Below are positions 5,986 to 64,000 of a stretch of 64,000 nucleotides of DNA, in pieces. This DNA comes from Streptomyces sp. NBC_01591 (GTDB lineage Bacteria; Actinomycetota; Actinomycetes; Streptomycetales; Streptomycetaceae). Within the stretch, counting starts at the first letter, position 1, and each line of letters opens with the position of its first letter. The notes beneath the pieces were generated by a model. That model did not search any database, was not told the DNA's origin, and saw only the letters and a list, made by a program, of their open reading frames with translations. The stretch lies in the NCBI RefSeq assembly GCF_035918155.1, contig NZ_CP109327.1, positions 6,634,001 to 6,698,000 of the forward strand, given 5' to 3'. The translations under genes and the position numbers were made by a program.

Positions 5986-6124
5986 GTTCTGGTGGGGAGG
6001 TTGCCTGTCTGCCCTGTGGGATGCGCTACAAAATGGCCTGTCCGTTTGGTGAATGAAAGTGACCCCGCTTAGCGTCGGCTCGGCTGTCCGTCACTCGTAT
6101 GCCGCATCCGCGACGTACCGGACA

Positions 6125-6275
6125 GTCATCGCCGAGTCCCCGTCAGGCGCGAGCCTGGGGAGCCGGGGACCCACGAAGTCCCTGGGGTGAATCGGATGCC
6201 TGAGCCCGATGGGGCCGGGGTGTCCGTAGGAGACCTTCCTGCTCCGAACCCGTCAGCTAACCCGGTAGGCGAGAA
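6125..6275 (+). promoter_or_regulatory. ydaO/yuaA-class cyclic-di-AMP riboswitch
   Basis: The leader of the M23 peptidase gene carries the conserved blocks of the ydaO riboswitch in order: GGGGAGCCGGGGACCC (about 6157-6172), GGGGTGAATC (about 6184-6193), and the 3' block CCGAACCCGTCAGCTAACCC (about 6244-6263) followed by GGTAGGCGAGAAGGAAGG. This class binds c-di-AMP and is normally an OFF switch. In Streptomyces it is known upstream of cell-wall hydrolase genes such as rpfA. It lies about 25 bases before the ATG at 6299, so hydrolase expression should fall when c-di-AMP is high. The 5' boundary is approximate. Confidence 0.92.
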
Positions 6276-6298
6276 GGAAGGAAAGGATCAGCCACTTC

Positions 6299-7120: not shown

Positions 7121-7146
7121 CCGACGCCCCACCGCAGCACCACGTC

Positions 7147-7175
7147 GAAGGCCCCGGCTCCATGCCGGGGCCTTC
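7147..7175 (+). terminator. Terminator after the M23 peptidase gene
   Basis: GAAGGCCCCGG and CCGGGGCCTTC form a perfect 11-bp stem with a 7-base loop, 26 bp after the stop codon. Confidence 0.8.
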
Positions 7176-7345
7176 GGCATGCCCGCCGTGCGCCCGCGGG
7201 CGACGACTGTCCGCCGAACCGCCCCGTGGCCAAAAGATATTCATGAATTTCCGCCCGGCATCGGAAATGCGGCCGCATTGCAATAGAGTCGCAGAACAGG
7301 CGTCGGTCGGCCGCGTTTCGCGGGGATTAAGGCGGAGGTTCGGAC

Positions 7346-8059
7346 ATGCGCATTCCGGCGCATTCGGTATGCACGGCAATCCGTGAAGACATCGTCTCCG
7401 GTGTCTTCGAACGCGGCAGCCGTCTCACGGAGGAGTTGCTGGCACGCCGCTACGGGGTCTCCCGCGTCCCGGTACGGGAAGCGCTGCGCACCCTGGAGTC
7501 CGAGGGCTTCGTGGTCACCCGGCGGCACGCGGGTGCCTGCGTCGCCGAGCCCACCGAGCTGGAGGCGGCCGACCTCCTGGAGGTCCGCACGCTGCTGGAG
7601 CCACTGTGCGCCGCGCGCGCCGCGCAACGCCGCACCGAGGCGCACCTCAAGGTGCTGCGCGGTCTCGTGCGGCTCGGCCAGGACCGGGCCAGGCGGGGCG
7701 AGGGCGAGGACCTGCGCTCGTTGGGCGGCTGGTTCCACGAGACGCTGGCGCAAGCCTCCGGCAGCCCCGGCCTGATCGCGCTGCTCACCCAGCTGCGGCA
7801 CAAGACCGCCTGGATGTACGCGGTCGAGCAGCCGGCCCGGCCGGTGGATTCCTGGGCCGAGCACGGGGCCATCGCGGACGCGGTGGCGCGCGGTGACGCG
7901 GAACGGGCCAGGGCGCTGGCCGCCCATCACGCGGAACGGGCCGCGGCCGCGCACCGGCTGCGCCGGACCGACCGGCCGGGCCGGCAGCCCGCCGTTCCCC
8001 GTACCGGCCGGGTGAGGACCTCGCAACATTCCGTAAACACCGCAGGCGTCCGGAATTAA
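7346..8059 (+). CDS. GntR-family transcriptional regulator (FadR/FCD type)
   Basis: The protein has 237 residues. The N-terminal winged helix reads ELLARRYGVSRVPVREALRT at about 31-50, the hallmark of the GntR family. The C-terminal half is all-helical with the FCD pattern (EVRTLLEPLCAARAA, then histidines in WFHETLA and in AAHHAERAAA), which usually binds a carboxylate, often through a metal. The start is ATG 7346 behind GGCGGAGG. No enzyme gene adjoins on the same strand; the nearest neighbour is ptsH on the other strand, so its target cannot be named. A hairpin terminator follows at 8092. The leader is relatively AT-rich for this genome. Confidence 0.88.
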   Translation: MRIPAHSVCTAIREDIVSGVFERGSRLTEELLARRYGVSRVPVREALRTLESEGFVVTRRHAGACVAEPTELEAADLLEVRTLLEPLCAARAAQRRTEAHLKVLRGLVRLGQDRARRGEGEDLRSLGGWFHETLAQASGSPGLIALLTQLRHKTAWMYAVEQPARPVDSWAEHGAIADAVARGDAERARALAAHHAERAAAAHRLRRTDRPGRQPAVPRTGRVRTSQHSVNTAGVRN

Positions 8060-8091
8060 CAATTACGCCGTATACAAATAGGTATGGCTGT

Positions 8092-8112
8092 GCGGGGTCA
8101 ATTTCACCCCGC
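8092..8112 (+). terminator. Terminator after the GntR gene
   Basis: GCGGGGT and ACCCCGC form a 7-bp stem with a 7-base loop just after the GntR stop. The stem is short, so termination may be partial. Confidence 0.5.
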
Positions 8113-8191
8113 CTGGAATTGGCGTGCCAGAATTCTGCATGTTCACCCGGAGGGCCCGATCCGGGAAAAAGGATCCGATCCGGAAAACAAA

Positions 8192-8228
8192 AGAGCCGCG
8201 GCCCCGGTTCAGGGCGCCACGGCTCTCT
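8192..8228 (-). terminator. Intrinsic terminator of ptsH
   Basis: Read on the minus strand, AGAGCCGTGG pairs with CCGCGGCTCT and is followed by TTTTGTTTT, a classical rho-independent terminator 15 bp after the ptsH stop. Confidence 0.8.
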
Positions 8229-8242
8229 CGCGGAGCATGTTC

Positions 8243-8524
8243 TCAGACGGTCTCCGGGAGCTCCTCGAGCCCCTCGGCGACCAGCTTCGCCAGACGGTCC
8301 AGGGCGGCTTCGGAGTCGTCGGCCTCGGATACGAGCACGATCTCCTCGCCACCCTGTGCGCCGAGACCGAGTACCGCGAGCATGGAGGCGGCGTTCACCG
8401 GGTTGCCGTCGGCCTTGGCGATCGTCACGGGGACGCCGGAAGCCGTGGCGGCACGGACGAAGATGGAAGCGGGGCGGGCGTGCAGGCCCTCGGCCCAGCC
8501 GACGTTGACGCGGCGCTCAGCCAT
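8243..8524 (-). CDS. ptsH: Phosphocarrier protein HPr
   Basis: The 93-residue protein is the general phosphocarrier of the sugar phosphotransferase system, passing phosphate from enzyme I to EIIA proteins. The active-site histidine is H15 in GLHARPAS. The second conserved site is S47 in NAASMLAVLGLGA; high-GC Gram-positives generally lack HPr kinase, so S47 may not be used. The gene is monocistronic here; ptsI and crr are not nearby. A DasR-type operator overlaps its leader at 8548-8563, fitting the known control of PTS genes by the GlcNAc regulator DasR in Streptomyces. Its own terminator follows. Confidence 0.95.
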   Translation of the reverse strand: MAERRVNVGWAEGLHARPASIFVRAATASGVPVTIAKADGNPVNAASMLAVLGLGAQGGEEIVLVSEADDSEAALDRLAKLVAEGLEELPETV

Positions 8525-8547
8525 GGTTCTGCCCTTCAGGAATCAAA

Positions 8548-8563
8548 AGTTGTCTAGACCAGT
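8548..8563 (-). promoter_or_regulatory. DasR-responsive element (dre) upstream of ptsH
   Basis: On the minus strand the sequence reads ACTGGTCTAGACAACT, one mismatch from the dre consensus ACTGGTCTAGACCACT as I recall it. It begins about 24 bases before the ptsH start codon, where repressor binding would block transcription. The match to a palindromic GntR-type operator in front of a known regulon member makes the call strong. Confidence 0.85.
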
Positions 8564-8690
8564 CTCTCACGCGGTGCGCAGTGCTCCGGTCGACCCGGGA
8601 AATGCCCGTGATGCCTGCGGTAGGGCCGAACGGCCCTCCCAGACTGCCCCGGCCCCGGGACCTACGCGACCGCTGACGGAGCCGTAGTCT

Positions 8691-28758: not shown

Positions 28759-29214
28759 TCAGGCCCGTACGGCCGTGAGCGCCGCTACCAGGGCCTGCGG
28801 CTCGCGCGTCGACAGATAGACGTACGGGGTCGGGTCCTGCGGGTCGGTGACCTCCACCCGGACCGCCGTCGGGATGTAGCTGCGCAGCAGCATGAACGCC
28901 CGGGTGTCCGCCTTGTACGAGCGCCACGCGCGCGCCTCCTCCCCGTCCAGCACCTCGGCCTCGCCGAGCGCCGTCACCGGGATCCGCGCGTCGCCGGCGA
29001 CCAGGGCGCCGGCCACGACCCGGATCCTGGCCGAGCCGTAGGAGCTCACCGCGACCGCCGACAGGGCCGTGCCGCCCACCAGGCCGGCCAGCAGGGGCAG
29101 GCCGCCGAGCGGCAGCAGCATCAGCGCGCAGGCGATGCCGACGAGGAGGGCGATGAGCCACCACGAACGGGGTGCGGTGAGTCGTTCGTCGAAAGGCGGG
29201 GTGGAAGGCTGCAT
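28759..29214 (-). CDS. DUF3093 membrane protein
   Basis: The protein has 151 residues with two adjacent hydrophobic segments (about 20-36 and 38-57) close to the N terminus and a soluble domain of about 90 residues after them. The soluble part has the DUF3093 pattern WRSYKADTRAFMLLRSYIPT followed by YVYLSTREPQALVAAL. The family is actinobacterial and uncharacterised; it sits beside dut in mycobacteria too (Rv2698, from memory). The gene is divergent from the thioesterase/dut operon with about 60 bp between the starts. The topology suggests that the C-terminal domain is cytoplasmic. Confidence 0.85.
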   Translation of the reverse strand: MQPSTPPFDERLTAPRSWWLIALLVGIACALMLLPLGGLPLLAGLVGGTALSAVAVSSYGSARIRVVAGALVAGDARIPVTALGEAEVLDGEEARAWRSYKADTRAFMLLRSYIPTAVRVEVTDPQDPTPYVYLSTREPQALVAALTAVRA

Positions 29215-50170: not shown

Positions 50171-51499
50171 ATGCAGAACGAACCCACGTCGTCGCTGGTC
50201 GGGGAGGAGTACGAGGTCGAGGTCGGCCCCGTCGCACACGGCGGCCACTGCATCGCCCGTACCTCGGAGGGCCGGGTCCTCTTCGTACGGCACACGCTCC
50301 CCGGCGAGAAGGTCGTCGCCAGGGTCACCGACGGCGAGAGCGACTCCCGCTTTCTGCGCGCCGACGCGGTACGGATCATCGAGGCGTCCAAGGACCGCGT
50401 CGAGGCGCCCTGCCCGTACGCGGGCCCCGGCAAGTGCGGCGGCTGCGACTGGCAGCACGCCAAGCCCGGCGCCCAGCGCAGGCTCAAGGGCGAAGTGATC
50501 GCCGAACAGCTCCAGCGCCTCGCGGGCCTCACCCCCGAGGAGGCGGGCTGGGACGGCACGGTCATGCCGGCCGAGGGCGACAAGCTCCCGGCGGGCGAGG
50601 TGCCGGCCTGGCGCACTCGCGTCCAGTACGCCATCGACGAGGACGGCAAGGTCGGCCTGCGCAAGCACCGCTCGCACGACGTGGAGCCCATCGAACGCTG
50701 CCTGATCGCGGCCCCCGGCGTCACCGAGCTCGGCATCGAGAAGCGGGAATGGCCCGGCATGGCCTCGGTGGAGGCCATCGCCGCCACGGGTTCCCACGAC
50801 CGCCAGGTCATCCTCACCCCGAGGCCCGGCGGCCGGCTGCCCCTGGTCGAGCTCGACAAGCCCGTCTCGGTGATGCGCGTCGACGAGCGTGACGGCGGCG
50901 TCCACCGCGTCCACGGCCGCGCCTTCGTACGCGAACGCGCCGACGACCGCACCTACCGCGTCGGCTCCGGCGGCTTCTGGCAGGTCCACCCGCAGGCCGC
51001 CAACACCCTCGTCCGCGCCGTCATGCAGGGCCTCCTGCCCCGCAAGAACGACATGGCCCTCGACCTCTACTGCGGCGTCGGCCTGTTCGCCGGCGCCATC
51101 GGCCAGCGCATCGGCGAAAAGGGTGCCGTCCTCGGTATCGAGTCCGGCAAGCGAGCCGTCGAGGACGCCCGGCACAACCTGAAGGACCTGGACCGGGTCC
51201 GCATCGAACACGGCAAGGTCGACCAGGTCCTCCCGCGCACCGGCATCACCGAGTGCGACCTGATCGTCCTCGACCCGCCCCGCGCGGGCGCCGGCAAGCA
51301 GACGGTCAAGCACCTGGCGGGCCTGGGGGCGCGCCGCATCGCGTACGTTGCGTGCGACCCGGCGGCACTGGCACGGGACCTGGCGTACTTCCGGGAGGGT
51401 GGGTACCGGGTGCGGACGTTGCGGGCGTTCGATCTGTTTCCGATGACCTCGCACGTGGAGTGCGTGGCGATTCTGGAGCTTGCCGCAAAGGGCGTCTGA
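50171..51499 (+). CDS. TRAM-domain RNA (uracil-5-)-methyltransferase, TrmA/RlmD family
   Basis: The protein has 442 residues. A TRAM RNA-binding domain (about 8-68) is followed by an iron-sulfur cluster motif C81, C89, C92 with a fourth cysteine near 177 (IERCLI). The SAM domain contains DLYCGVGLFAG, and the catalytic cysteine is C395 in VACDPAALARD. The C-terminal DLFPMTSHVECV segment is the general-base motif. It makes 5-methyluridine in rRNA or tRNA; which one is not decidable. The ATG 50171 follows GGAG. The last 60 bases of the gene recur downstream as degraded copies, so its 3' end is an integration target. Confidence 0.92.
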   Translation: MQNEPTSSLVGEEYEVEVGPVAHGGHCIARTSEGRVLFVRHTLPGEKVVARVTDGESDSRFLRADAVRIIEASKDRVEAPCPYAGPGKCGGCDWQHAKPGAQRRLKGEVIAEQLQRLAGLTPEEAGWDGTVMPAEGDKLPAGEVPAWRTRVQYAIDEDGKVGLRKHRSHDVEPIERCLIAAPGVTELGIEKREWPGMASVEAIAATGSHDRQVILTPRPGGRLPLVELDKPVSVMRVDERDGGVHRVHGRAFVRERADDRTYRVGSGGFWQVHPQAANTLVRAVMQGLLPRKNDMALDLYCGVGLFAGAIGQRIGEKGAVLGIESGKRAVEDARHNLKDLDRVRIEHGKVDQVLPRTGITECDLIVLDPPRAGAGKQTVKHLAGLGARRIAYVACDPAALARDLAYFREGGYRVRTLRAFDLFPMTSHVECVAILELAAKGV

Positions 51500-51515
51500 C
51501 CTGCTATTTCCTCTG
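51431..51515 (+). repeat. 3' end of the methyltransferase gene, copy A (intact, att-like)
   Basis: This segment covers the DLFP motif, the stop codon and the 15 bases after it (TGACCTGCTATTTCCTCTGG from 51497). The 25-bp stretch from 51455 (GTGGAGTGCGTGGCGATTCT and five more bases) is repeated without change at 57147-57171. It is taken as the active left attachment site, which restores the gene. Confidence 0.75.
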
Positions 51516-52369
51516 GTTCTTCAGGCTGCTGGATGGCCGCCGACCTGTTTCCGCGTGTGCACGACGTGGAACGTGTCGGGGGACCAGGGAGAGGGATTGA
51601 CCTGCGGCTTCGTGAACGTCGTGCGAGACGGTGGACGCGTTGTCCCTACTCCGCGGGGCGTATGGGAACCGTCCTGACGCTGGTCCCGACGGAGCGTCAG
51701 ACGAGCAGCCCTCTGGTCCGCATGGTCGTCTGCCGCCCATGCCGTCTTTCCCCTGGGCAGATGGTGTCAGCGGAAGCGATCGGCGGGGCGGGGCTCAGCG
51801 ACCGATCGTGCCGCGAGCGGCATGGACTCCGTCCTCGACGATTCCTCTGAGTCAAGAAAAGTCGTTCACAGCCACCCGCACCGCTTCCCGCTGCCGGCCC
51901 CCGTCCGGGCCTCCCGAGTCCCTCTCAAGAGGACCTGCCTGGACGGGGGCCTCGTCGCCTGTGCCTGTACGGGCAGCCCGACCCGCGGGCCTGGCGGATC
52001 GGCCCCAGCGGCTCGCGCTCCGCCGGACGCTATTCGGTGCGCAGCGCCGTGGCTCATGTGACGCTCGTTCTGATGGAGCGTCACCTGATTGACCGTCCAG
52101 GTCATGCGGGGCGGACGGTGCGCGGGGCTTTCTCCGTTCCCGGCGTTCTCCTCTCGGGACCGGGCGGCGGGCTCTCTGTCGTAGCGGCGGAACCGAGCAT
52201 GGCACCCTCACCGCGCTCAGGCCTCTCGGCATGTTGCACAAACTCCGACGTCGTTGCTTGCCGCGATTGCGCAGAGACGGGTCTCGAACCGTGCTTCAGG
52301 ATGTGCGATCAGACAAGGCGTGAGCCGGATGAAACATCCAGTTCACCGTGACGACATCGGGAGTCCGCT
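51500..52369. other. 870-bp gap without a supported gene
   Basis: No frame here has a recognisable domain. Besides copy C it contains two hairpins built on the same motif: CTGACGCT...AGCGTCAG (51674-51700) and GTGACGCTC...GAGCGTCAC (52058-52084). Open frames are overlapping and of shadow quality. It is probably debris at the edge of an integrated element. Confidence 0.6.
51539..51612 (+). repeat. 3' end of the methyltransferase gene, copy C (decayed)
   Basis: About 110 bp after copy A, GACCTGTTTCCG opens a frame DLFPRVHDVERV parallel to the gene's DLFPMTSHVECV. It ends with TTGACCTGCGGCTTCG, matching the post-stop region of copies A and B. The interior is diverged and the stop is out of frame. 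It looks like an older attachment-site remnant. Confidence 0.6.
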
Positions 52370-53224
52370 GTGCTCTGGAGAACACTGCTCGTCCCCCTGA
52401 CCTCGCTCCTGCTCCTGCTGACGGCTTCTGCCGGCGCGGGAGCGGCAGCGGCGTCCACCGGTTCCCCCGCCGGTGCCAGTGCCGAGGCGGCCGCGGCCGA
52501 CTACGGCGCTCCCGGCCCCTACGCCACCGCGGTGGAGGTCGGGGCGGTGACCACCCTGTACTACCCGCGTGACATCGCGACCAGCGACCGCCGCCACCCC
52601 GTGATCGTGTGGGGAAACGGCACCTTCGCCTTCCCGGTCGTCTACCGCGACCTGTTGCTCCACTGGGCCAGTCAGGGCTTCATCGTCGCCGCCGCCAACA
52701 CCCCGCAGTCCAACCTCGGCATCTCCATGCGCGCCGGGATCGACCTGCTCACCCGTCGCAACGCCGACCACGGCAGCCCCTTCCACGACCGTGTCGACCT
52801 GGAGCACATCGGTGCGTCCGGTCACTCGCAGGGCGGCGCCGCCGCCATCGTCGTCGGCGCGGACCCGCGCATCGACACCATCCTGCCCATCCAGCCCGGG
52901 CCGCTCGCCGACATCGACGACGTACACGTACCCGCGCTCCTCCTGGCCGGGCAGAAGGACAGCATCGTCTTCCCCTTCCTGGTCAAGGCCTTCTACAACG
53001 GCGCCGACCACATACCGGCCATCTACGGGGAACTGCGCGGCGCCGATCACCTCACGGTCGTGGGCGACCCCGGCCCGTTCGCCGCGCCCACCACCGCCTG
53101 GTTCAAGGCACACCTGATGGGGGACCAGACGGCGAGTGCACAGTTCTTCGGGGCCGGCTGCGGGATCTGCACCGACAGCGGCACCTGGTCCGACGTCCGC
53201 CGCAACGGCCTCGCAAACCGGTGA
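52370..53224 (+). CDS. Secreted alpha/beta hydrolase (chlorophyllase/cutinase-like)
   Basis: The protein has 284 residues from GTG 52370 with GGGAG upstream. The signal peptide (LWRTLLVPLTSLLLLLTA, about 1-28) is clear. The nucleophile motif is GHSQGG (serine near 147), with the acid in LAGQKDSIVF and histidine in GADHLTV. The fold resembles lipase/cutinase-type alpha/beta hydrolases acting on esters outside the cell. Cysteines near the C terminus (AGCGICTDSGTW) may form a disulfide. It is first of two hydrolase genes in the region between the duplicated methyltransferase ends. Confidence 0.83.
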   Translation: MLWRTLLVPLTSLLLLLTASAGAGAAAASTGSPAGASAEAAAADYGAPGPYATAVEVGAVTTLYYPRDIATSDRRHPVIVWGNGTFAFPVVYRDLLLHWASQGFIVAAANTPQSNLGISMRAGIDLLTRRNADHGSPFHDRVDLEHIGASGHSQGGAAAIVVGADPRIDTILPIQPGPLADIDDVHVPALLLAGQKDSIVFPFLVKAFYNGADHIPAIYGELRGADHLTVVGDPGPFAAPTTAWFKAHLMGDQTASAQFFGAGCGICTDSGTWSDVRRNGLANR

Positions 53225-53341
53225 CCCGCTCCCGGAGATCCCTTCCGCCGTGACCGGCGGCCGTCCCGATCCACGCCGCCCGCCCCTGACGCTCCCGCGA
53301 CCAGGGGCGGCCGGCCCCCGTTCGCACATGGAAGGACCGCC

Positions 53342-54742
53342 ATGGACCTCATCGCGACCACCGGGCAGGGCAAGGTCCGAGGCCGTTTCCACAACGGGAT
53401 CGCCACCTTCCTCGGCATCCCCTACGCCGCCCCGCCCTTCGGCGCCCACCGCTTCCGCGCTCCCGCCCCGGTCGAGTCCTGGGAAGGGGTACGAGACGCT
53501 CTGGAGTACGGGCCGACCGCCCCCAAACGCCCCTACCGCCCGCCCCTCGACCGGCTGATACCCGATCCGAGCATCGCCGGGGACGACTGTCTCAACCTCA
53601 ACGTCTGGACCCCATCGGTCGGCGAGGGCCGGCTGCCCGTCATGGTCTGGATCCACGGGGGTTCCCTGCGCAACGGCTCGGCGAACCTGCCGCTCTACGA
53701 CGGGGGCGCCTTCGCGCGCGACGGGGTGGTCCTCGTCTCCGTCAACTACCGGCTCGGCGTCGAGGGGTTCGGGGTCTTCCCCGACGCCCCCGTCAACCGG
53801 GGCCTCCTCGACCAGATCGCAGCCCTGATCTGGGTCCGCGACAACATCTCCGCCTTCGGCGGAGATCCGGCGAACGTCACCGTGTGCGGGGAGTCCGCCG
53901 GCGCGATCAGCGTCGCGGCCCTCATGACCAGCCCCGGCGCGGCCGGGCTGTTCCACCGGGCGATCCTGCAGAGCGGCCCGCCGCACACGATATCGCGCCG
54001 CGAGGGCGCGAAGACCGTACGGTCGATGGCGAAGAGACTGCGGATCCCGGCCACCGCCGAGGCGTTCGCGGCGGTGGACCGAGACCTGCTGCTGGACGCG
54101 CAGGCCGCCGTCGTCGACCGGTCCGACCCCATCGGCGGCGGTCCCGGCTTCCACATCGTGGTCGACGGCGACGTGGTGCCCGCCGCCCCGCCCCTTCCCG
54201 AGGCCGACCTGCTGCTGGGCTGCAACCGGGAGGAGTACCGGCTGTGGTTCGTACCCGGCGGAACCGTGGACCGGATCAGCCGGCTCACCCTGCGGCTGGC
54301 ACTGCTGAAGATCCGTGTCCCGCAACGCGTGGCACGCCTGTACCGAGCCACCCGGCCGCACGCCAAACCGGGTGAGATCCTGGGAGAGATGGCCACCGAC
54401 CTGCTGCTGCGGGGGCCGCTCAACCGCCTCGCCGACTCCCGGCCCGCCCGCACCTTCGTCTACGAATTCTGCTGGCGCTCGCCCGTGATGGGACTCGGCG
54501 CGTGCCATGCGCTGGAACTCGGCTTCGTCTTCGACAACCTGCGCGCCGCCGAGGACCTGACCGGGCCCGGCGCGCCCCAGCCACTGGCCGACGCCATGCA
54601 CCGGGCCTGGGTCGCCTTCGCCACTACCGGACAGCCGGGCTGGTCCGGCTGGAACGCGGACCGGCCCGTCATGGTCTTCGACCACCCCGGCGCCGGCCCG
54701 GTCCTCGCACCCCGGCACGAGGAACTCGGCGCCTGGCTCTGA
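53342..54742 (+). CDS. Type-B carboxylesterase (para-nitrobenzyl esterase family)
   Basis: The protein has 466 residues and no signal peptide. The oxyanion and nucleophile motifs are intact: VWIHGGSLRNGS and CGESAGA with the catalytic serine near 184. The histidine lies in GACHALELGFVF. The acid residue is probably in the CNREEYRLWF region. It hydrolyses carboxylic esters; the natural substrate is unknown. GGAAGGA precedes the ATG at the right distance. Two hydrolases followed by a convergent PucR-type regulator may form a small catabolic module. Confidence 0.87.
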   Translation: MDLIATTGQGKVRGRFHNGIATFLGIPYAAPPFGAHRFRAPAPVESWEGVRDALEYGPTAPKRPYRPPLDRLIPDPSIAGDDCLNLNVWTPSVGEGRLPVMVWIHGGSLRNGSANLPLYDGGAFARDGVVLVSVNYRLGVEGFGVFPDAPVNRGLLDQIAALIWVRDNISAFGGDPANVTVCGESAGAISVAALMTSPGAAGLFHRAILQSGPPHTISRREGAKTVRSMAKRLRIPATAEAFAAVDRDLLLDAQAAVVDRSDPIGGGPGFHIVVDGDVVPAAPPLPEADLLLGCNREEYRLWFVPGGTVDRISRLTLRLALLKIRVPQRVARLYRATRPHAKPGEILGEMATDLLLRGPLNRLADSRPARTFVYEFCWRSPVMGLGACHALELGFVFDNLRAAEDLTGPGAPQPLADAMHRAWVAFATTGQPGWSGWNADRPVMVFDHPGAGPVLAPRHEELGAWL

Positions 54743-54781
54743 CAGATGACAGGCCGAGCGCTCGCCGACGCCGGCCGTGGT

Positions 54782-55966
54782 TCATTGGCTTTCCGCTGCT
54801 CCTGCGGATCCCTGCCATCCGGTGACCCCGCGGTGATCCGAGGGCCCGGCCAGGTCCCTGGCGACGAGCGCCGCCTGGATCAGCCGCGCCTGCGCGGGAA
54901 CCGCGAGGTCGAGGCCCGTCAGCGCGCTCACTCGCTGCAACCGGTAGTCCAGGGTGTTGCGGTGGACGCACAGCTCCAACGCCGTCTGGCGGCGGTTGAG
55001 CCCCCGCTCCACGAACACGCGCAGCGTCTCAAGCAGGTACGGATGCTCCTCCAACGGGTCGAGTTTGGCCGCCAGCCGCACCAGGCCGTCCCCGGGGCGC
55101 GCGAGCTGGTGCTCCAGCAGCACGTCGTCGAGGCGGTAGCACCCGGGCGGGCGTCCCAGGCGCCGGACGAGATCCAGCACGCGGCCGGCCTCCTGCGCCG
55201 CCGAGGAGATGGCCGCCGGTACGGAGGAGCGGGAGGCGGCGGCGCGCACGGGCTGCCCCACGTCCTTCTCCAGCCGGGCCACCAGGCCCGGCACGTCGGA
55301 CCTGCCCGGCAACAAGGCGATCCGAGCGACGTGGTCCATCAGCACAGGGATCCCGGTGAAGGCGTCGAGCGAGGACTGCACCAATCTGCGCGGCGGGTCG
55401 GACTCGAACGCGAAGGCAACCACCTCGTACTCACCCACCACGGCCACCCGCGCCACGCCCGCCAGCTCCTCGTACGGCCGTCCTGCCAGCAGGGCGCCGA
55501 GCAGGGCCCGCCGTACGCGCTTGTCCTCGCTGTGGAGGTCCTCCTGGGCGTTCTGGTGGGCGAGGACGACCGCGGGCAGCGCGGCGTGCAGGCAGGCGAG
55601 CAGCTTGCCGCCCGCCCCGGCCAGCTCACCGGGCTCCGCGACCTCGGTCAGCGTCTGCCACCACACCTCGGCGCCGATCAGGTACGCGGCGATCACCGCC
55701 TCCAGGGGGACGCGCTCCTCGGCCCGGCGCGCCGACCACTCGATGAGCCGGGTCAGATCGCCCGGCCCCATCGGACCCCCGCCGCCGCCGTCGCGCAGTG
55801 CCCTGAGCAACAGCGCGTGCACCGCCGCGATGGACCGCGCCACCTCGCCCTGGAGGGTGGCGCGGGGCAGCGCCCCGTAGAACGGCGCCTCCGCCGCGCA
55901 GCGCGCGACCACGACGGCCGTGAGGTCACCGACCCGGGCGGCCATCCGGGCGTGCAGGTCCGACAT
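54782..55966 (-). CDS. PucR/CdaR-family transcriptional regulator
   Basis: The protein has 394 residues from ATG 55966. The C-terminal PucR helix-turn-helix reads VFVERGLNRRQTALELCVHR followed by NTLDYRLQRV (about 325-355), and an upstream GGDEF-like CdaR domain covers about 160-290. The N terminus is helical. Streptomycetes have many such sugar-diacid or purine-type regulators. It converges with the carboxylesterase gene (40-bp gap) and probably regulates it or the secreted hydrolase. The ribosome site is weak. Confidence 0.83.
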   Translation of the reverse strand: MSDLHARMAARVGDLTAVVVARCAAEAPFYGALPRATLQGEVARSIAAVHALLLRALRDGGGGGPMGPGDLTRLIEWSARRAEERVPLEAVIAAYLIGAEVWWQTLTEVAEPGELAGAGGKLLACLHAALPAVVLAHQNAQEDLHSEDKRVRRALLGALLAGRPYEELAGVARVAVVGEYEVVAFAFESDPPRRLVQSSLDAFTGIPVLMDHVARIALLPGRSDVPGLVARLEKDVGQPVRAAASRSSVPAAISSAAQEAGRVLDLVRRLGRPPGCYRLDDVLLEHQLARPGDGLVRLAAKLDPLEEHPYLLETLRVFVERGLNRRQTALELCVHRNTLDYRLQRVSALTGLDLAVPAQARLIQAALVARDLAGPSDHRGVTGWQGSAGAAESQ

Positions 55967-56120
55967 CGGCGCATCGTCACACCGCCCCGGCCGTGCCGTC
56001 AATCGGAGCCCCGGGTCCGGCGGCGCGGGCAGTGCGTCGGGCGTGTCCCCGAACCGCTCCCGGCCGCCAACTCGTCGACGAAAGAGGCGACGTCACGTGG
56101 CACACCCGTAGCATGCCAAC

Positions 56121-56264
56121 TTGCGTATGACGGGTGTCATCAATCCCCAGGGCCTGGAGTGGCACTACGAGTACGATCCGGCCGGACGTCTCATATCCGA
56201 GTCCGACTTCGATGGTCGCACCGTGACGTACACCTACGACGCGGCCAACCGGATGACCGAAAGC
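56121..56264 (+). pseudogene. Rhs/YD-repeat protein fragment
   Basis: A short open stretch encodes GVINPQGLEWHYEYDPAGR and then DFDGRTVTYTYDAANRMTE, two consecutive YD repeats as found in Rhs and wall-associated toxin proteins of 1500-2500 residues. Nothing of the rest of such a gene is present on either side, so this is a relic of a polymorphic-toxin locus. After the second repeat the frame loses similarity. Confidence 0.75.
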
Positions 56265-57083
56265 CCGCCTCCTGGCGGGGGGATCGCTCTGTGGCGCAAG
56301 GGACTCGCCACGCTCCGTGGTACGTCTCCGCGGAGCCGTCGGTCGGCGGGGACGCTGCCGCGCGTTTGATGCCGAAGGCCAGGCGGTAGGCGTCGGGCAG
56401 GTCGATCGCAGTGTCGGTGCGCCGCGTCATCAGCCCAGCTCGATGAGCTCCCGGAGCAGAGACGCCGGGTTGTCGACCCCCTGGGGGCGCTCCCCTCGTG
56501 CTTCAGCTCTTTCGAGGCGAGTCGTGCAACAGCGGTGTCGGAAGGCATGCCCACGCGTGCCGGTGGGCCCGGGCACCGCGTTCCGGCTCACGCACAACTG
56601 GGTACCGCTGAAATGCTCCAGGCCGGCGACCGTCGAGGTTGGTCGGCTCGGCGAACGGGTCCGTAAGCCGGAGCCGGCCGCCGTGAGTGTGGCCGGAGGC
56701 TGCAGGTCGACGCCGTGGCAGACGGCGTCGCGGACGACGACGGGTGGTGGGTGAGGAGGGCATCTTCGTGGGGGTGTTTTCCACCGGACGCAGCCCCCAT
56801 GTCCCGTACCTGCGGCGAGCCACTGTGTCACGAGGCCACATCTGTACGCACCGACGGTTACCCGTGCCGACTGCTCGACGACCCCGCAGTGCGGGCACGC
56901 TTCGACGGTGGCCGGCACCCGGGGGCGAGCACCGACCGGTGATTCCGCACAATCCCACGTCCTTGCTTCTGGCAGTGTGCGGGGCTGCCGTCGACACGCG
57001 TTGAGCAGGGCCGACCGGTCTCGGCCGTGACGCTCGTTTGACGCTCCGGGCATGTGCAGGCCGCTCCTCGGGAGCGGTCACGC
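56265..57083. other. Decayed sequence without a supported gene
   Basis: Several weak frames exist. On the minus strand one frame ends LLRELIELG and its stop overlaps an ATG at 56430 of another beginning MTRRTDTAIDLPDAY, a pattern of coupled genes, but neither has a recognisable domain and both become low-quality upstream. A CPHCG pair in the minus frame near 56900 hints at a lost zinc ribbon. I treat it as gene debris. Two 9-mers, TGACGCTCG and TGACGCTCC, sit at 57028 and 57039. Confidence 0.45.
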
Positions 57084-57106
57084 CGCGTCTGACCTGCAGG
57101 TTCTCT
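57084..57106 (+). repeat. Post-stop attachment remnant, copy D
   Basis: GCGTCTGACCTGC followed by AGGTTCTCTG matches the stop-codon end of the methyltransferase gene and its flank (GCGTCTGACCTGC, TATTTCCTCTG at 51492). Sequence before it is not related to the gene, so only the distal half of the site was kept. Confidence 0.5.
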
Positions 57107-57125
57107 GAATGTCGATCCCCGTGAC

Positions 57126-57209
57126 GTATTTCCGATGACGCATCATGTGGAGTGCGTGGCGATTCTGGAGCCTGCGGAAAAGGGCCGCTGACCTGCGGTT
57201 TCGACTGAT
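57126..57209 (+). repeat. 3' end of the methyltransferase gene, copy B (second att-like copy)
   Basis: TTTCCGATGAC, a 25-bp block identical to 51455-51479, GCGGAAAAGGGC and CTGACCTGCGGTTTC follow in the same order as in the gene end 5.7 kb upstream. Overall identity over about 75 bp is high. This is what remains of the original gene end after an element inserted and supplied a new one. Confidence 0.75.
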
Positions 57210-57419
57210 GTGCATTATGGGCGTTACGTGCGATATCTCGACGCGTGTGACGCACGGTTGACGCACGACCGGCGCGGATTCTGATGGGGTGTCACGGGGG
57301 CTCCCCTTCCGGGGGAGAGAATTGATCCGTGTGGGGGAGGGGCTCCTAGAAGGGGTGGATGGCTACCGCCCACCACGCCTGAATCCGCTTCAGCGGCCTG
57401 GGCCCCGCTGCCGGCCTCT

Positions 57420-57459
57420 CCAGGCAACACCGATCACTCAACTGATCGGTGTTGCCTGG
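57420..57459. terminator. Perfect 17-bp hairpin downstream of the leftward gene cluster
   Basis: CCAGGCAACACCGATCA and TGATCGGTGTTGCCTGG flank a 6-base loop. It lies 66 bp after the stop of the leftward gene at 57526 and would end that unit. There is no U-tract on either side. No gene was supported between 57210 and 57525. Confidence 0.7.
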
Positions 57460-57525
57460 GAAGGCAGGTCCATAGACGCCATGGGCAGGGCAGAGTGACT
57501 TGCCGTCCGCCTGATGCGGTGCCTA

Positions 57526-58878
57526 TCAGTTGACTCGACGATTTCCGGGAGCGACTTCGCTTCGGTGCATTCCGACGACGACGGATCCCGGCCCCCCGGG
57601 GGACAGGCTCTCGCGTATCAGGTCGATGATGTAGTCCCAGCTGGTATCGCGCGTGCCGATCCACCCGTCCCTGAGCAAGGTGGTGAAGGTGGTGTTGTTC
57701 AGATACCGGGGAACCGAGTCTTCGATGATGCGTTTCCCGCCGGACGGCCCATCGGACTCGGGGCGTTGAAGCAGCTCCCGGAAATGCTGTCGTGCGAGAT
57801 ACATGCCGGGTATGAGCGCGGCCGAGTTCATCATGAAGGGAACTGTTCGGCACAGCTTGACCATGCTCGGCGTGGTGACCAGGCGCGGGTCCCCCAGCGG
57901 CCTGGAGCTCTGTTGGCTCGTCCGAGCCAGTTCGTCCTCAGCCCTGCACTGGTCGTCCACGGCCTTCATCCGGTCCAGCTCCCGCTCACCAGTGCCGTCG
58001 TGCCAGTAGACCCAGCTGCGTCCGCTCTGGCGCATGCGCTTGTACTGGACCGTCGCCACGCTGCGCGCGTGTTCGTTGACGTAGATCATGTCGACGCCCA
58101 TGACAGTCTCGGCATGTGTGCGGTTGGCGTTGTACACGAACAGCCGATGGGGGGAGTCAGAGTTCCGGCGGTAGATCCGCCAGCCGACCTGCACGGCGTC
58201 CTCACTCGCCATGCCGGGGAAGCGCATGTAGTCATGGACGATCTGCTGGTCCTCGATCTGCCGGAGGGCGGGCAGCCCTTCGAGGAAGGGTACGTATCGT
58301 GAACGGGGATCGTTCTCGCCGAGCGGCGGCTGCCATGCTTCGAGTGGATCGCGATCGGCGCCGAAAGCCTCAAGCAGGGTGCCTACAGCGTCCTTCTCGA
58401 GGCTCAGCCGTTCTCCCACCTCCCCAGTCGGAGGATTGGCTCCCAGGCTGTTCTCCAGGCCGTCGAGTGTCTCGTTCAGTTCCGGCCGCTGACGCCGGAC
58501 GGCGTCGAGCAACTTGTCGCCGGCTGCAGGAGACAAGCGGCCGTCGTCGCGGAGATAGCGACGGCTGGCACCCATGGCGCCCTCGAGATCAACGAGCGGC
58601 AAGGGCAACTGGAGTGTGGTGAAGTCGCGTGTGATCAAGGCCCGTTCGTACGTACCCGACCGTCTGCCGGGGAAGACGCTGCCCACCCCGATGATCCTGC
58701 GCCGCTCGTAGTGGGTATGACGGTCCGTGAAGAAGGCAAGGCACCATACGCGCGGCTTTCTCCAGTCTTTGTGGGGGTATGCGAAGGTTCGCTCGCCACG
58801 GTGCAGCCACGCTGGAGGGTTTTCGGGGAGTCGTTCCACCATCAGCGCAGTGCTGTGCACCAGTGCGACAGCGACCAT
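57526..58878 (-). CDS. Unknown protein with possible PD-(D/E)xK-type nuclease core
   Basis: I do not recognise a family for this 450-residue protein. The centre contains MGVDMIYV and, 15 residues later, TVQYKRM: D263 and Q278-x-K280 on predicted strands, the D...QxK arrangement seen in Mrr-like and related nucleases. The first 100 residues are beta-rich (VWCLAFFTDRHTHYERRRII, VGSVFPGRRSG); the last 180 are mostly helical. AGGAGAG lies seven bases before the ATG. Base composition is less GC-rich than in the core genes. It follows a RelE-UvrD helicase and a DUF1998 protein on the same strand after a 209-bp gap, so it may belong to the same defence-like locus. Confidence 0.6.
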   Translation of the reverse strand: MVAVALVHSTALMVERLPENPPAWLHRGERTFAYPHKDWRKPRVWCLAFFTDRHTHYERRRIIGVGSVFPGRRSGTYERALITRDFTTLQLPLPLVDLEGAMGASRRYLRDDGRLSPAAGDKLLDAVRRQRPELNETLDGLENSLGANPPTGEVGERLSLEKDAVGTLLEAFGADRDPLEAWQPPLGENDPRSRYVPFLEGLPALRQIEDQQIVHDYMRFPGMASEDAVQVGWRIYRRNSDSPHRLFVYNANRTHAETVMGVDMIYVNEHARSVATVQYKRMRQSGRSWVYWHDGTGERELDRMKAVDDQCRAEDELARTSQQSSRPLGDPRLVTTPSMVKLCRTVPFMMNSAALIPGMYLARQHFRELLQRPESDGPSGGKRIIEDSVPRYLNNTTFTTLLRDGWIGTRDTSWDYIIDLIRESLSPGGPGSVVVGMHRSEVAPGNRRVN

Positions 58879-59087: not shown

Positions 59088-61349
59088 TCATGAAGCGGGC
59101 AAGCGCATGAGCGGTTCGAGGAACGGGCTCGGACGGCCGTGCCAGAAGATGGCGAGGCTGTCCCGGGACCGGGTGGCCGCGACGAAGAGCAGAGAGCGGG
59201 CCCGCTGGAGCTCGCGCCGGTAGCGGACGGCATCGGCGTTCCGTAGGCGGGTGACCGCCTCTCGGGGCACGAGTCCGTCCCGAACCCCCGCGATGACCAT
59301 GCGCTGGTACTCGAGTCCCTTGAAGCGGAACATCGTGCCGATGTGGACGCCTTCGTCTCCACGGGGACCCTCGGGGCCGATCTCGACGGCCTTGATCCCT
59401 TTGTGGGCGAGCAGGGTGTAAGCCAGCTCGCTCGCCATGGCGTTGGTCGGAACGCAGACGGCGATCTGCCCGGGCGGTGTCGGCAGGGCGATCCAGTCGG
59501 CTAGGAGCGCGGCGATCGACTCCTGCTCGGACTCCCAGTCGTCGCAACCGTGCAACTGCGGAAGGCTTCCGGTCAGGACGGACCTGTACCCGGCCAGGTC
59601 CTCGCTGCTGCCGTCCAGGTCGTCGAAGCTCTCGCCGCTGAGCACACCGAGTGCGGAGCCGAGGATCTGCCGGGTCGTTCGGTAGCTCAATGTCAGTTTG
59701 GCCGAGCGTCCGCGGATGTGGACCCCGAGGCTTCCCAGCGTGACCTGGTTGCCGTAGATGCGCTGGTGTGTGTCGCCCACGAGGAAGATGTCGTTGGCGG
59801 CACGCGGTGCCATCGCCCGAAGCAGCTTCCAGTGCGCGGCCCGCAGGTCCTGTGCCTCGTCGACGACGATGTGCTGGAAGCGGTGCCGCAGCCAGCCCGC
59901 GGAGCCGGCCTGAAGATGGATGTTGTCAAGACCGCCCGCCTCCTCCCGCTGACGCTCGACGTTCTGGATCCGCCGCTCGCGGTCCATCTCCAGCCGGGCC
60001 GCGCGCTCGGCGACCTGTTCCCAGGTCTGCCGTCCGAGGCGGTCGAGTCGCTGGGTGAACCGCTCCGCGAGCTGCCAGATCTCGGCGCGCTCGGCTCGTG
60101 CGATGTTCTTGCCCCGGCCGGCTCGCCGCGCACGGAAGTATTCGGTCCGGGAGACGACGGCCTGGCCCAGGATGACTTGCGACCACTCGTCGTGCAGGAA
60201 CTGGGCGTCCCACCCGGTTTCGCCCAGCTCGTCGAGCATGGCCCGCCACTCACGGAGAGCCTGGCTCTCGTCGAGCGTCTGCTTGGCGCTTCCGGGCTCG
60301 GCCTCGCGTACGACGCGCAGCGCGAGCTGGTCGACGTGGCTGATCTCCACGCGCGCCAACAGCTCCTCGCCGCCCAGTTGGAGCAGCCGGGACCTGAGGT
60401 CGGCGGCAAGGTTCTTGTTGTACGTGGTGAGGAGGACGGGCTTGTTACGGCCGGGAGGCAGCCGGTCCACCAGGTGCTTGACCCGGTGCAGGGCCACGAT
60501 GGTCTTGCCGGTGCCAGGTCCACCCCCTACCCGGGCGGGACCCGAGTACTCGCGTTCGACGAGCCGGGATTGGGTCGGGTGGAGGAATACCTTCCACCGA
60601 CCGAAGTCGCCGCCCTCCAGGGCTTCGCGCAGCGCCTCGTCCGTCGTCGTGACCATGGTGGCCGGCCGCTCGGCGGCGGCCCGGAAGTCGTCGGTGTCGA
60701 TGGGGTCCGGTACGGAGACGGGACTGGTGATCTGCTCCAGCACCGCGTCGTACGACGCACCGTCGTGGAGTGCGAGCAGGACTTCCGAGGTGAGCTGAGG
60801 GGCGTACTCCGCCAGACCGAGGAGCTGATCCTCGGTGGTCAGGGTCCGGACGACCGGTACGAGCGGTCCCGCGACGCCGAGGTCGGTGAGCTGCTCGTCG
60901 GAGAACGCGGCGAACAGCGGGACAGGGGCGGGCGCGGGTGCCGGGGCAGGCTCGGTGGGGGCGGTGGCGGGCCCCGGAGTCGCCGCTCGGCGAAGGACGC
61001 TCTCCTCGACGATCTGGAGGTCGACGTACTCGATGCCGCCGGTGATCCGGTTGATGCCGTACGAGAGCCGGTCGAGCTTCTCGTACGCCTCCTTGCGGTG
61101 CTTGACGGAGACGATGAGCCAGTCGGTGTCCGCCAGACGCAGCAGCAGGACCCTGTACTCGTCGTTGATGCGGGCCGACCAGAGCCGGTCGTGGCCTTCC
61201 AGCTGCTTCAGCCGAAGGCCCCGGAGCTGAGGGTTCTCCTTGAACTTGTGCTGGAAGTCGTAGATCGCGCCCTTGACCGCACGCGGCAGCCTCAGGATCT
61301 CCTTGTCCGCCTTGTCGAGCAGACGCAGGGTCACGCCCGTGGTCGTCAT
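59088..61349 (-). CDS. UvrD/Rep-family superfamily-1 helicase with N-terminal RelE-like domain
   Basis: The protein has 753 residues. Residues 7-95 resemble the RelE/ParE toxin fold (LDKADKEILRLPRAVKGAIY, LKQLEGHDRLWSARI, YRVLLLRL, IVSVKHRKEAY). A Pro/Ala linker (123-145) leads to the helicase: Walker A GGPGTGKT (275-282), Walker B VVDEAQD (495-501), motif III GDTHQRIY, motif IV SYRTTRQI, motif V GTMFRFKGLEYQ and motif VI FVAATRSRDSL. All ATPase motifs are intact, so it should translocate on single-stranded DNA; whether the RelE-like part cleaves RNA or just binds is open. It overlaps the upstream DUF1998 gene by ATGA, so both are cotranslated. Confidence 0.88.
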   Translation of the reverse strand: MTTTGVTLRLLDKADKEILRLPRAVKGAIYDFQHKFKENPQLRGLRLKQLEGHDRLWSARINDEYRVLLLRLADTDWLIVSVKHRKEAYEKLDRLSYGINRITGGIEYVDLQIVEESVLRRAATPGPATAPTEPAPAPAPAPVPLFAAFSDEQLTDLGVAGPLVPVVRTLTTEDQLLGLAEYAPQLTSEVLLALHDGASYDAVLEQITSPVSVPDPIDTDDFRAAAERPATMVTTTDEALREALEGGDFGRWKVFLHPTQSRLVEREYSGPARVGGGPGTGKTIVALHRVKHLVDRLPPGRNKPVLLTTYNKNLAADLRSRLLQLGGEELLARVEISHVDQLALRVVREAEPGSAKQTLDESQALREWRAMLDELGETGWDAQFLHDEWSQVILGQAVVSRTEYFRARRAGRGKNIARAERAEIWQLAERFTQRLDRLGRQTWEQVAERAARLEMDRERRIQNVERQREEAGGLDNIHLQAGSAGWLRHRFQHIVVDEAQDLRAAHWKLLRAMAPRAANDIFLVGDTHQRIYGNQVTLGSLGVHIRGRSAKLTLSYRTTRQILGSALGVLSGESFDDLDGSSEDLAGYRSVLTGSLPQLHGCDDWESEQESIAALLADWIALPTPPGQIAVCVPTNAMASELAYTLLAHKGIKAVEIGPEGPRGDEGVHIGTMFRFKGLEYQRMVIAGVRDGLVPREAVTRLRNADAVRYRRELQRARSLLFVAATRSRDSLAIFWHGRPSPFLEPLMRLPAS

Positions 61350-64000
61350 CGCTGCTGGTCTCCGTCGTTCGTGTCCGTGTCTTCGCCCTCCGCCGCGGCG
61401 AGGAGGTTCTTGATGTCCAGGGCGGTGCAGGAGGCGGCTGTGCGGATCCGCCAGTCTGCCGAGGTGAAGGCCTTGTCCCGGTCCTCCGCATCGTGATCCC
61501 GTTCCCCATCGGCCGGACGGTGGGCCGTCACCACGGCGATCCGGGCGGAGGGCCAGGCGAGTTCGGCCATCCAACCGTGCTCGTCCAGCTCGTAACCGGC
61601 TTCCGGCGGCACCACGCCCAGAGCGCGAAGCCCCTGGCTGAGGGGGAGCAGACCGGGTTCATCGGGGTCGAGGAACTCCAGTACCTGCTCCCAGTCGGTG
61701 TCATGAGCCGTGTCGGAGGGCTGGGCCGGCCGAGATGTGGGGATGACCGGGGCGGGCGGCCTTTCTGCCAGGTCTCCGGCGGGACTCGCCGTAACGGCGG
61801 CCGGCTGCTCGACCCGCTGGGATCTGAGCCAGCCCGAGCCCCCGGTGACGGCGAGGCCGTCGGTGGTGAAGCCCTCCAGCAGGCTGGCCGTCAACTGGAC
61901 ACTGTCACCGCCTCCGTGCTCCAGGAACTGCAGCACATTGCTCCAGTAGAGCCAGCCCTGCCAGCGTCGCTTGTGCCCGGCCTCGTCCGAGAGGGCCCGG
62001 TCGCTGTCGTCGAGCAGGGTCAGCGCGGTCCACACCGGCGGCCGGTGCCGACCGTCCGCAGCAGCCGTGACCACGCATCCTGTCGCGTCGACCGCGGAGA
62101 GCAGCTGTACCGGTCCCTTGGGCCCCTGAGGGGCGCCGCCCCGCAGCGCGGTGAGGAGTTGTTCCCCGACCGCTTGAGGATGCAGTGCGGCGATGCGGGC
62201 CCCGGCGCCCAGCAGCCCCGCGACGGCGGCCTCGGCGCGCTGCTGCCACAAGGAAGCGTCCGGGGCACGCAGATGAGCGATCAGAAGGTCCGCCGGATTT
62301 ACCCAGAGGTTCGCGGACAGCTCGCCCGGCAGGCCGCCGTGCACGCCCGCGTAGTAGTCACGGGCACGCTTCTGGCCCTGCTCGCCGTACGGCACCCAGG
62401 CCGGGTGCTCAGGCCCCGTGCTCGCGTAGCCCGTGTCACGGACCCGGGTCCGCCAGTCCTTCACGTCGTAGTAGGTGAGCTGGAAGACCCGCACTCCGTC
62501 GGCGCGCAGCCGGGTGCGCTTGACGGCGTCGTCGGCCAGCCTCTCCTTGTGCTTCGGCCCGGCATGGAACTCGTATCCGTCGAGGTAGAGCGCGATCCGC
62601 GGACCGGGTGCATCCGTGCGTTCGAAGAGGACGTCGGGACGAGTGCCGTCGAGGACCCGCTGCTGGGAGACCCGCCAGCTGACGGTGGCCCCGTCGACGC
62701 CGGTCAGTCGCAGGTCCAGAGAGTACGTTCCGGCCGTGGTCGTGTAGGCGTCCGCGCTGGCCTTGGCCGAGGGCTGCTTCGCCCATTCGCCCAAGGTCTC
62801 CAGGAACATGACCTCTAGATCGCTCTCGGCCTGCCGCTCCAGCGGGATCTGGTGGGTGGCCGCGACCGGCGAGGTGGCCCAGCTACCGCCGTCGGCTCCC
62901 AGCAGCTCGTCGAACATCTGCCGGACCTCGTTGCGGCTGACCTTGTCGTAGTCGCCGGCTGGTACGCGACGCAGCAGGCAGCGGTGGCAGCCGTCGAGGC
63001 CCTTCTCGATGCATGGGCAGCCGTCGATCACCTCGCGAGCCCTCAGCAGCACTTCGCGGAAGCCGTCGGAGGTGGCGAGCCGGTGCAGGTAGCCGGTGCC
63101 GCCCGGCAGACGGTCGTAGACGACGAGGAAACGACGAGGCCATTCTGGGTCGTTGCCGTCGGGCATGGACGCGGCGGTGAAGGACGCGAGGCGTTCCTTG
63201 ACGCGGGCGACCGACGCGGGAAGCAGGATACGGACGGCCTCGGTGGTCAGCTCGTGGGCCAGGAGAAGGGGGACGTCCTCCCCCTTCCCCTGGCCTTCCG
63301 GGGTACTAGTACGGACCTTGCGGCGCGGGCACCACAGCTGGTGGTGAGCGCTGGCCCTGGTCGCCGCGGCAAGGGATTCGGTGAGTGCGTCCTGGTGGTG
63401 GTCCACGACCGGGCGCCCCTCGGAGGTGGCGCCGCCGCAGCTCGTGCAGACGTAGAACGGGTTGATCCGTATGTCGGCCCCGGCGAGGGGCACGGTGCTG
63501 CTGCCGTCCTGACGGTCGAGGCCCAGATTCAGCGTGCGCACCACCGCCTGGCGGGTGAAGTCGACGCCGAAGACGGCGGTGTCGTGGCGCCAGGAGCCCG
63601 CGGCCAGGTGCACCGGGTCGATGTCCACGGTCGTGAGGACGGCGTACCTCTTGCTGTCGCGCTCGTCCTTGTCGTCGCGGACCCGGGCGTCGTCCCGCTT
63701 GTCGCGCGACATGACCCGCTTCGGTTCGAGAACGCGCTGGACACAGCCGGCGTCCGCGATCTCCCGGCCGCCGCACCGGGGGCAGGGCGAGGCCTCGGCC
63801 TGGGCGTTCTCCGTACGGACGTAGCCGCACGCGGGGCACAGCCGCCACACCGACCAGGCACGACGCTCCGGACTGCCGATGTCCAGGGCCCGGACGACGT
63901 GCTTGTAGCCGTTGACGTAGAAGCTGTTTCCGGGCGCCAGTTCGGACAGCGCGGACCGGCGCGAGCGCTCGTAGTCCCGGACCTCGCTGTGGTAGCTCTT
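61346..64000 (-). CDS. DUF1998 helicase-associated protein with C-terminal Vsr-like nuclease domain (partial)
   Basis: The frame is open to the window edge, so at least 884 residues are visible and the N terminus is missing. The beginning (ALSELAPGNSFYVNGYKHVV) and the zinc pattern CPAC...CPRC belong to large DUF1998-containing helicases; the DUF1998 core includes FLVVYDRLPGGTGYL and the cysteine cluster CPCIEKGLDGCHRC near 62990. After it, DVLFERTD, RIALYLDGYEFHAG and RLRADGVRVFQLT resemble a Vsr/DUF559-type endonuclease. DEAD-box motifs would lie beyond 64000. DUF1998 proteins occur in DISARM and Druantia phage defence. The unrelated C-terminal 300 residues are unassigned. Confidence 0.75.
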   Translation of the reverse strand, partial: KSYHSEVRDYERSRRSALSELAPGNSFYVNGYKHVVRALDIGSPERRAWSVWRLCPACGYVRTENAQAEASPCPRCGGREIADAGCVQRVLEPKRVMSRDKRDDARVRDDKDERDSKRYAVLTTVDIDPVHLAAGSWRHDTAVFGVDFTRQAVVRTLNLGLDRQDGSSTVPLAGADIRINPFYVCTSCGGATSEGRPVVDHHQDALTESLAAATRASAHHQLWCPRRKVRTSTPEGQGKGEDVPLLLAHELTTEAVRILLPASVARVKERLASFTAASMPDGNDPEWPRRFLVVYDRLPGGTGYLHRLATSDGFREVLLRAREVIDGCPCIEKGLDGCHRCLLRRVPAGDYDKVSRNEVRQMFDELLGADGGSWATSPVAATHQIPLERQAESDLEVMFLETLGEWAKQPSAKASADAYTTTAGTYSLDLRLTGVDGATVSWRVSQQRVLDGTRPDVLFERTDAPGPRIALYLDGYEFHAGPKHKERLADDAVKRTRLRADGVRVFQLTYYDVKDWRTRVRDTGYASTGPEHPAWVPYGEQGQKRARDYYAGVHGGLPGELSANLWVNPADLLIAHLRAPDASLWQQRAEAAVAGLLGAGARIAALHPQAVGEQLLTALRGGAPQGPKGPVQLLSAVDATGCVVTAAADGRHRPPVWTALTLLDDSDRALSDEAGHKRRWQGWLYWSNVLQFLEHGGGDSVQLTASLLEGFTTDGLAVTGGSGWLRSQRVEQPAAVTASPAGDLAERPPAPVIPTSRPAQPSDTAHDTDWEQVLEFLDPDEPGLLPLSQGLRALGVVPPEAGYELDEHGWMAELAWPSARIAVVTAHRPADGERDHDAEDRDKAFTSADWRIRTAASCTALDIKNLLAAAEGEDTDTNDGDQQR

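Follow-up and report, generated by a model that had tools for sequence, protein, structure and literature searches.

The 64,000-nucleotide stretch of Streptomyces sp. NBC_01591 analyzed here (positions 6,634,001 to 6,698,000 of NZ_CP109327.1, hereafter the window) contains an intact gene for a TRAM-domain RNA (uracil-5-)methyltransferase at 50171..51499 on the forward strand (Pfam TRAM 2.6e-13, tRNA_U5-meth_tr 1.9e-15), the 3' end of which recurs downstream. The gene is matched in 199/199 genomes of the genus, and its 3' end is the putative attachment target of the mobile units described below. Downstream of this gene, a MurA-like gene is found at 106 kb and dxs at 135 kb; the latter distance differs among genomes.

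Repeats of the methyltransferase gene end

Two copies of the gene end, A and B, form a direct repeat of 79 nucleotides at 82% identity (51437-51515 and 57129-57207), which spans the last 63 bases of the gene together with post-stop bases and is the longest direct repeat reported within 50-59 kb. Both copies contain the 25-bp identical block GTGGAGTGCGTGGCGATTCTGGAGC, as an earlier reading of these letters (the sequence-only reading) had noted. Copy A (51437..51499, +) comprises the core and a replacement gene tail on the side of the left attachment site (attL), with the exchange interval probably at 51441-51450; copy B (57143..57191, +) is a displaced, probably older gene tail, including its stop codon. 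When the B region was used as query against the whole 10.25-Mb genome, copy A was matched at E = 1.2e-15 and a third copy, E, was found 36 kb past B and outside the window (G000:6727244-6727360, or 93244-93360 in window numbering). A, B, and E were the sole places at E<=0.001, and all three have the form expected of attL and of the right attachment site (attR), namely the end of the target gene repeated in direct orientation. The sequence-only reading had counted four copies within 5.8 kb. A and B are indeed gene-end repeats; its copies C and D proved to be conserved end boxes instead, and the array extends to E.

Copies B and E share a block of 946 bp at 98.6% identity (56255-57200 and 92416-93360), within which 56255..57158 (+), the right-end segment of the first unit, is repeated at 92416-93318 in window numbering, beyond the window. 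Because the two copies are near-identical to the left of the core and continue into two different gene tails to its right, they would represent two right borders of integrated units, each with a displaced older gene end after it. Two stacked units can be delimited in this way, a 5.7-kb unit with predicted esterases between A and B and a 36-kb unit with defense-type genes between B and E. Repeated insertion at one site, as well as an integration hotspot at the gene 3' end with replacement ends, had been proposed from the window; both proposals are supported by A, B, E and the recurring right end.

Conserved ends and the probable point of exchange

Judged by their sequences, the units are bounded on the left by a side with a replacement gene tail and on the right by a conserved end with two TGACGCTC repeats, a TGACCTG box, and the core TTTCCGATGACGCA. 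At the A-B unit the two arm-type repeats begin at 57028 and 57039, 11 bp apart (57028..57046, +), the TGACCTG box, which corresponds to copy D of the sequence-only reading, lies at 57090..57096 (+), and the core occupies 57129..57142 (+), with exchange probably within 57133-57142. Profile R1 places the right end at 57040..57157 (+; 71.2 bits, E 4.7e-19) and finds two full right ends in the genome. The TGACCTG box was first noticed, some 32 bp to the left of the core, at seven right borders from six genomes, chosen without the box pattern. For 120 right ends chosen by a pattern that includes TGACCTG, the spacing from box to core was 31 in 76, 32 in 39, 30 in 4, and 33 in 1, giving two main variants one base apart (31 versus 32). 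Two or more copies of TGACGC[TA]C are present in 86/118 right ends versus 47/2360 background windows; the pair is spaced 11 bp apart in 86/118, most commonly at positions -98/-87 from the core. Right ends for the spacing, arm, and TTTT counts (120, 118, and 121, respectively) were picked by the pattern TTTYCGATGAC, so that TTCC variants are under-represented in them. With the left-side repeats given below, the core is flanked by arm-type repeats, to which an integrase may bind.

The right-end pattern occurs in at least 120 stretches of genome contigs. Of the 80 matches listed, 78 are labelled Streptomyces and two 'Actinobacteria bacterium', and the other 40 include one from Microtetraspora glauca. 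At E<=1e-9 the right end is found in 107/365 genomes of the family and 6/17 genera (99 genomes in the same genus, eight in five other genera). A strong right end (best E below 2.5e-9) is present in about 206/392 genomes by a hand count from the table, and the tally of 374/392 at 1e-4 is inflated because the gene's own core scores. Orientation is uniform: among listed matches that share a contig with the gene, 49/49 right ends lie on the strand of the gene, 47 downstream of it and 39 within 100 kb. These orientation counts, and the linkage counts given below, cover listed matches whose gene or partner is listed on the same contig. Another conserved stretch takes the place of the gene tail next to right ends in L123, L145, L155, L166, and L235 (near 28487). 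This stretch, GAAGAG..GGAAGCCGT..GGTTCAAAGTCCCAG and variants, adjoins a MurA-like gene in L123 and L155; it could serve as a second site of attachment or form another element's left end. An acetoacetyl-CoA synthetase gene, traced in G159 and G065, may be the native right neighbor.

Among 38 loci, 17 left sides are of type I, 12 of type II (that at copy A among them), and nine of neither. The type II box lies 27-42 bp past the stop codon in these 12/38 loci and is found in 15/1140 background windows; in the window it is the former copy C (about 51541-51612, +), 40 bp past the stop codon. In the second unit the left end (57192..57295, +) is type I-like; it has TGACGCAC repeats at 57248 and 57259, and resembles the sequence that follows the gene in relatives. 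In the 260 bp next to the stop codon, TGACGC is found twice or more on 22/38 left sides versus 4/760 background windows. The type I left end includes a stretch which we take to resemble dif; once exchange had been placed in the core of the gene, a Xer/dif-type mechanism was dropped.

The exchange point was placed with the help of two linear plasmids, NZ_CP108566 (L235) and NZ_CP120984 (L236), which are 99.4% identical over 20.4 kb and contain stacked right ends and gene tails. They are the same through core base 14 and different from base 15, as expected of two tail alleles. TTTT precedes CGATGAC in 20/121 right ends versus 0/38 genes. From the plasmid split and this distribution together we infer that exchange takes place within CGATGACGCA, an interval of about 10 bp.

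A linked family of tyrosine integrases

Integrases encoded in right-end loci belong to one family of about 370 amino acids, six full-length members of which are 71-97% identical. They contain a Pfam Phage_integrase domain (3.8e-24) and an N-terminal SAM-like domain, and in 18 aligned sequences R196, K231, H310, and R313 are invariant, with H336 and Y345 nearly so, these being the conserved catalytic residues of a tyrosine integrase. An AlphaFold model was poor (mean predicted local distance difference test score, pLDDT, of 50.3) and usable only at about residues 5-50, predicted to form three strands and a helix, which presumably fit an arm-binding domain.

This family is linked to the gene and to the right end. 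In 19/19 cases listed on the same contig, integrases share the strand of the TRAM gene and lie downstream of it (two of them at 0.47 and 2.3 Mb), in line with the suggestion that integrase genes be sought beside the same gene end elsewhere. The nearest listed right end follows the integrase on the same strand in 30/30 genomes, at distances from -6 bp to 43 kb. Two complete elements contain the integrase, one of 9.7 kb in G108 (1340-11089, integrase at 6946-8055) and one of 18.7 kb in G159. At E<=1e-60 the family is present in 46/392 genomes of the genus, the NBC_01591 genome not among them; of 394 genomes sampled across the class, three have it at E<=1e-80, each from this same genus. A strong right end accompanies it in 43/46 genomes, versus 163/346 of the others (hand count; Fisher test applied), and many genomes with right ends lack the family. 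At E<=1e-40 no plasmid matched it. A phage origin was rejected: integrase relatives in 692 phage records are all below 60% identity (best listed, 37%), no viral contig matched the right-end pattern, and the right-end region is absent from the phage collection.

An integrase with catalytic residues beside an attachment site is thus a property of the sister elements and not of the units in the window. A first local search (a home-made profile and tblastn, with part of the queries only) found no integrase. Genome-wide there are 24 Phage_integrase places, none of them in 6685-6728 kb, and no PF07508 match, which agrees with the original statement that no integrase lies between the copies. Eight units were delimited by tail copies regardless of integrase (A-B, B-E, and one each in G075, G126, G005, G116, G059, and G166), and 0/8 are in genomes with the family integrase at E<=1e-60. 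A 5.8-kb unit in G126, at this gene end, encodes a CdiI immunity-domain protein and a protein with a CdiA-CT RNase A-type domain (L037 1882-5388). Elsewhere in the NBC_01591 genome, tyrosine-recombinase frames of the same size and score are found at 72727 and 8733028 of contig C1 and at 72724 and 1199453 of C2, about 73 kb from both ends of each contig, as if the linear replicons shared long terminal repeats.

Stacked units, their cargo, and their proposed mobilization

Cargo of the A-B unit includes genes for a PETase-like alpha/beta hydrolase (52370..53224, +), a carboxylesterase (53342..54742, +), and a protein with a PucR-type helix-turn-helix domain (54782..56002, -). The cargo stretch 52153-56066 recurs at 98.6% identity in Streptomyces sp. 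CB01580 (L148), where it adjoins a right end 95% identical to B, and at 96.9% identity in G149, where it is about 10 kb from the gene; the same cargo is thus seen at different positions. A stray RHS-repeat fragment (56121-56369, Pfam 2.3e-14) lies in the part of A-B that is absent from L148. Within the B-E unit are a protein of unknown family (57526..58878, -; no Pfam match at 0.001), a UvrD-type helicase (59088..61574, -; DNA 93.5% identical in G166), and a DruE-like protein of 2254 amino acids (61346..64000, continuing to 68110 beyond the window, -; PADLOC DruE, 1.1e-86). The unit also encodes an MkoA-like helicase, NsnA (1.6e-132), NsnB (9.3e-117), a type IIG restriction-methylase, a DrmD-like helicase, a protein kinase, and a DUF5753 regulator; the putative defense assignments are family matches only. 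Just inside this unit, 57411-57468 forms a terminator-like 26-nucleotide inverted repeat (88% complementary, 6 nucleotides between the arms). Close to its right border is an open reading frame (ORF) at 89764-91116 in window numbering, beyond the window, which we take to resemble an IS110-type transposase. No relaxase, type IV secretion system (T4SS), or TraB was noticed by eye, and partly with Pfam, among the ORFs of A-B, B-E, G108, and G159, no dedicated search having been made. Apart from the island, the window contains an odd tRNA with a four-base anticodon at 29004-29098 (ARAGORN).

It is highly probable that the 3' end of the TRAM gene serves as the bacterial attachment site (attB) for integrative elements of one family, which employ the approximately 370-amino-acid tyrosine integrase. 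The N-terminal domain of the integrase would bind the TGACGCTC arms and the enzyme would exchange strands within CGATGACGCA, after which the tail carried by the incoming circle would restore the gene and the old tail, with any older unit behind it, would be pushed downstream. The region would thereby be a site-specific accretion island. The A-B and B-E units may have lost an integrase or never had one, and would be moved only by the integrase of another element, as cis-mobilizable elements (CIMEs) are. In keeping with that class, both units have no integrase and retain attL and attR, with two full right ends and an arm-poor attL at A.

Several observations weigh against this interpretation. 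The left end at A has one TGACGC only in 260 bp, so its attL may be defective. The A-B unit appears to be a mosaic, with cargo common to L148 and G149 and a left end that is not. Strains without the A-B stretch had been expected to join the gene directly to what follows. In favor of this, G166 lacks A-B and has a 40.7-kb unit after the gene, with its right end at 41980 and cargo colinear with B-E blocks 59031-89412 (87-94% identical, one 0.6-kb block 77%), but it differs from B-E at both ends, at 57.2-59.0 and over most of 68.2-71.6 kb. Since both ends and part of the middle differ, the two units are better regarded as relatives than as the same insertion. No clean empty site was found, and gene families other than the methyltransferase each occur in at most 4/37 relatives (fetched stretches, mostly 20 kb). 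Among the 49 right ends listed, two (in G013 and G094) are upstream of the gene and five more than 200 kb downstream, so secondary sites or rearrangements exist. One of the two plasmids has about 8.4 kb extra at the exchange point, ending in another right end that is joined to non-tail sequence, and the two are therefore not a textbook occupied and empty pair. Three of the 46 integrase genomes (G228, G269, G361) have no strong right end among those listed, and the NBC_01591 genome itself encodes a distant integrase relative (C1:7036602, E 2e-37). Recombination itself, with excision and a circle, is inferred from sequence.

Some of these same features would suit an island of dead remnants, left by old elements and no longer moving. 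That the genome has no family integrase, that arms are few at its left end, and that the cargo is mosaic would all follow; yet the right ends at B and E are 98.6% identical over 946 bp despite different cargo, another strain has the A-B cargo at 98.6% identity, and the two plasmids part at this same core, and we regard complete immobility as rather unlikely. Homologous recombination between conserved flanks could also produce a variable region, with tail copies as a by-product of partial duplications. The variable distance to dxs would fit, and the 946 bp shared by B and E could recombine. Junctions at one point of a coding gene and in one orientation (all 49 listed), the fixed arm spacing, and the linked integrase family are hard to obtain in this manner, and the conserved right end largely refutes the idea, to which we assign very little probability. 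A serine integrase, the enzyme that targets rumA in streptococci (PMC5704250), was rejected as next to impossible here, since the linked family is a tyrosine integrase, PF07508 is not matched in the NBC_01591 genome, and of the PF07508 genes in 24/37 relatives none listed is near the gene (nearest among those on the same contig about 265 kb away, in G170).

Among listed titles and abstract openings in the open literature, none dealt with this target in Streptomyces, subscription papers being mostly outside that coverage. Of the systems compared here, the nearest in kind would seem to be the PAISt island of bacA, accretion of CIMEs, and the ssrA islands of Dehalococcoides. For PAISt of Streptomyces turgidiscabies an integron-like capture has been proposed by its authors; as here, a tyrosine recombinase is involved, the 3' end of a protein gene is duplicated at module borders, and a module lacks an integrase gene (PMC4057263). 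Integration at the PAISt palindrome TTCATGAA in bacA (PMC4057263) is not what is seen here: the target is the TRAM gene, the core is different, and the linked integrase is recognized by Pfam. Accretion of CIMEs with integrative and conjugative elements (ICEs) likewise stacks units without integrase or transfer genes that keep attL and attR at one gene end (PMC5704250); mobilization in cis is a prediction in the present case. The Dehalococcoides islands form tandem arrays downstream of a single gene end; a conserved motif adjoins the repeat, and some islands lack an integration module. They differ in using a CcrB-related serine recombinase and in having the transfer-messenger RNA (tmRNA) gene as target (PMC3146451). 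Tandem elements with decayed neighbors are also described for actinomycete ICEs (AICEs) at a Streptomyces tRNA-Arg gene, which, unlike the units described here, contain traB, rep, and int and mostly target tRNA genes, one being in rlmN, a 23S rRNA methyltransferase gene (PMC9513070). The parallel drawn with streptococcal rumA was correct in that a rumA-type rRNA methyltransferase gene is the target of integrative and mobilizable elements (IMEs); the parallel fails in that those elements use a serine integrase at an internal site, rather than a tyrosine integrase near the 3' end (PMC5704250).

More tentatively, and with the balance of probability tipped against it, the gene end may be a docking platform for the whole family, close to a natural cassette system, in which units without integrase (1.9 to about 41 kb seen) would be inserted, stacked, and re-sorted by occasional integrases, also on linear plasmids, with defense genes among the goods. 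Ends and cargo are exchanged in a way that would fit this idea, the same right end occurring with different cargo (B and E) and the same cargo with different left ends (L148, G149, and NBC_01591). For a variable chromosome region of an antibiotic-producing genus, the findings supply defined ends, an enzyme family, and a likely mechanism. The right end can be used to delimit mobile units, defense-gene islands included, that would be missed by integrase-based tools, and the integrase, together with a target conserved in all 199 genomes, could serve as an integration tool in laboratory strains.

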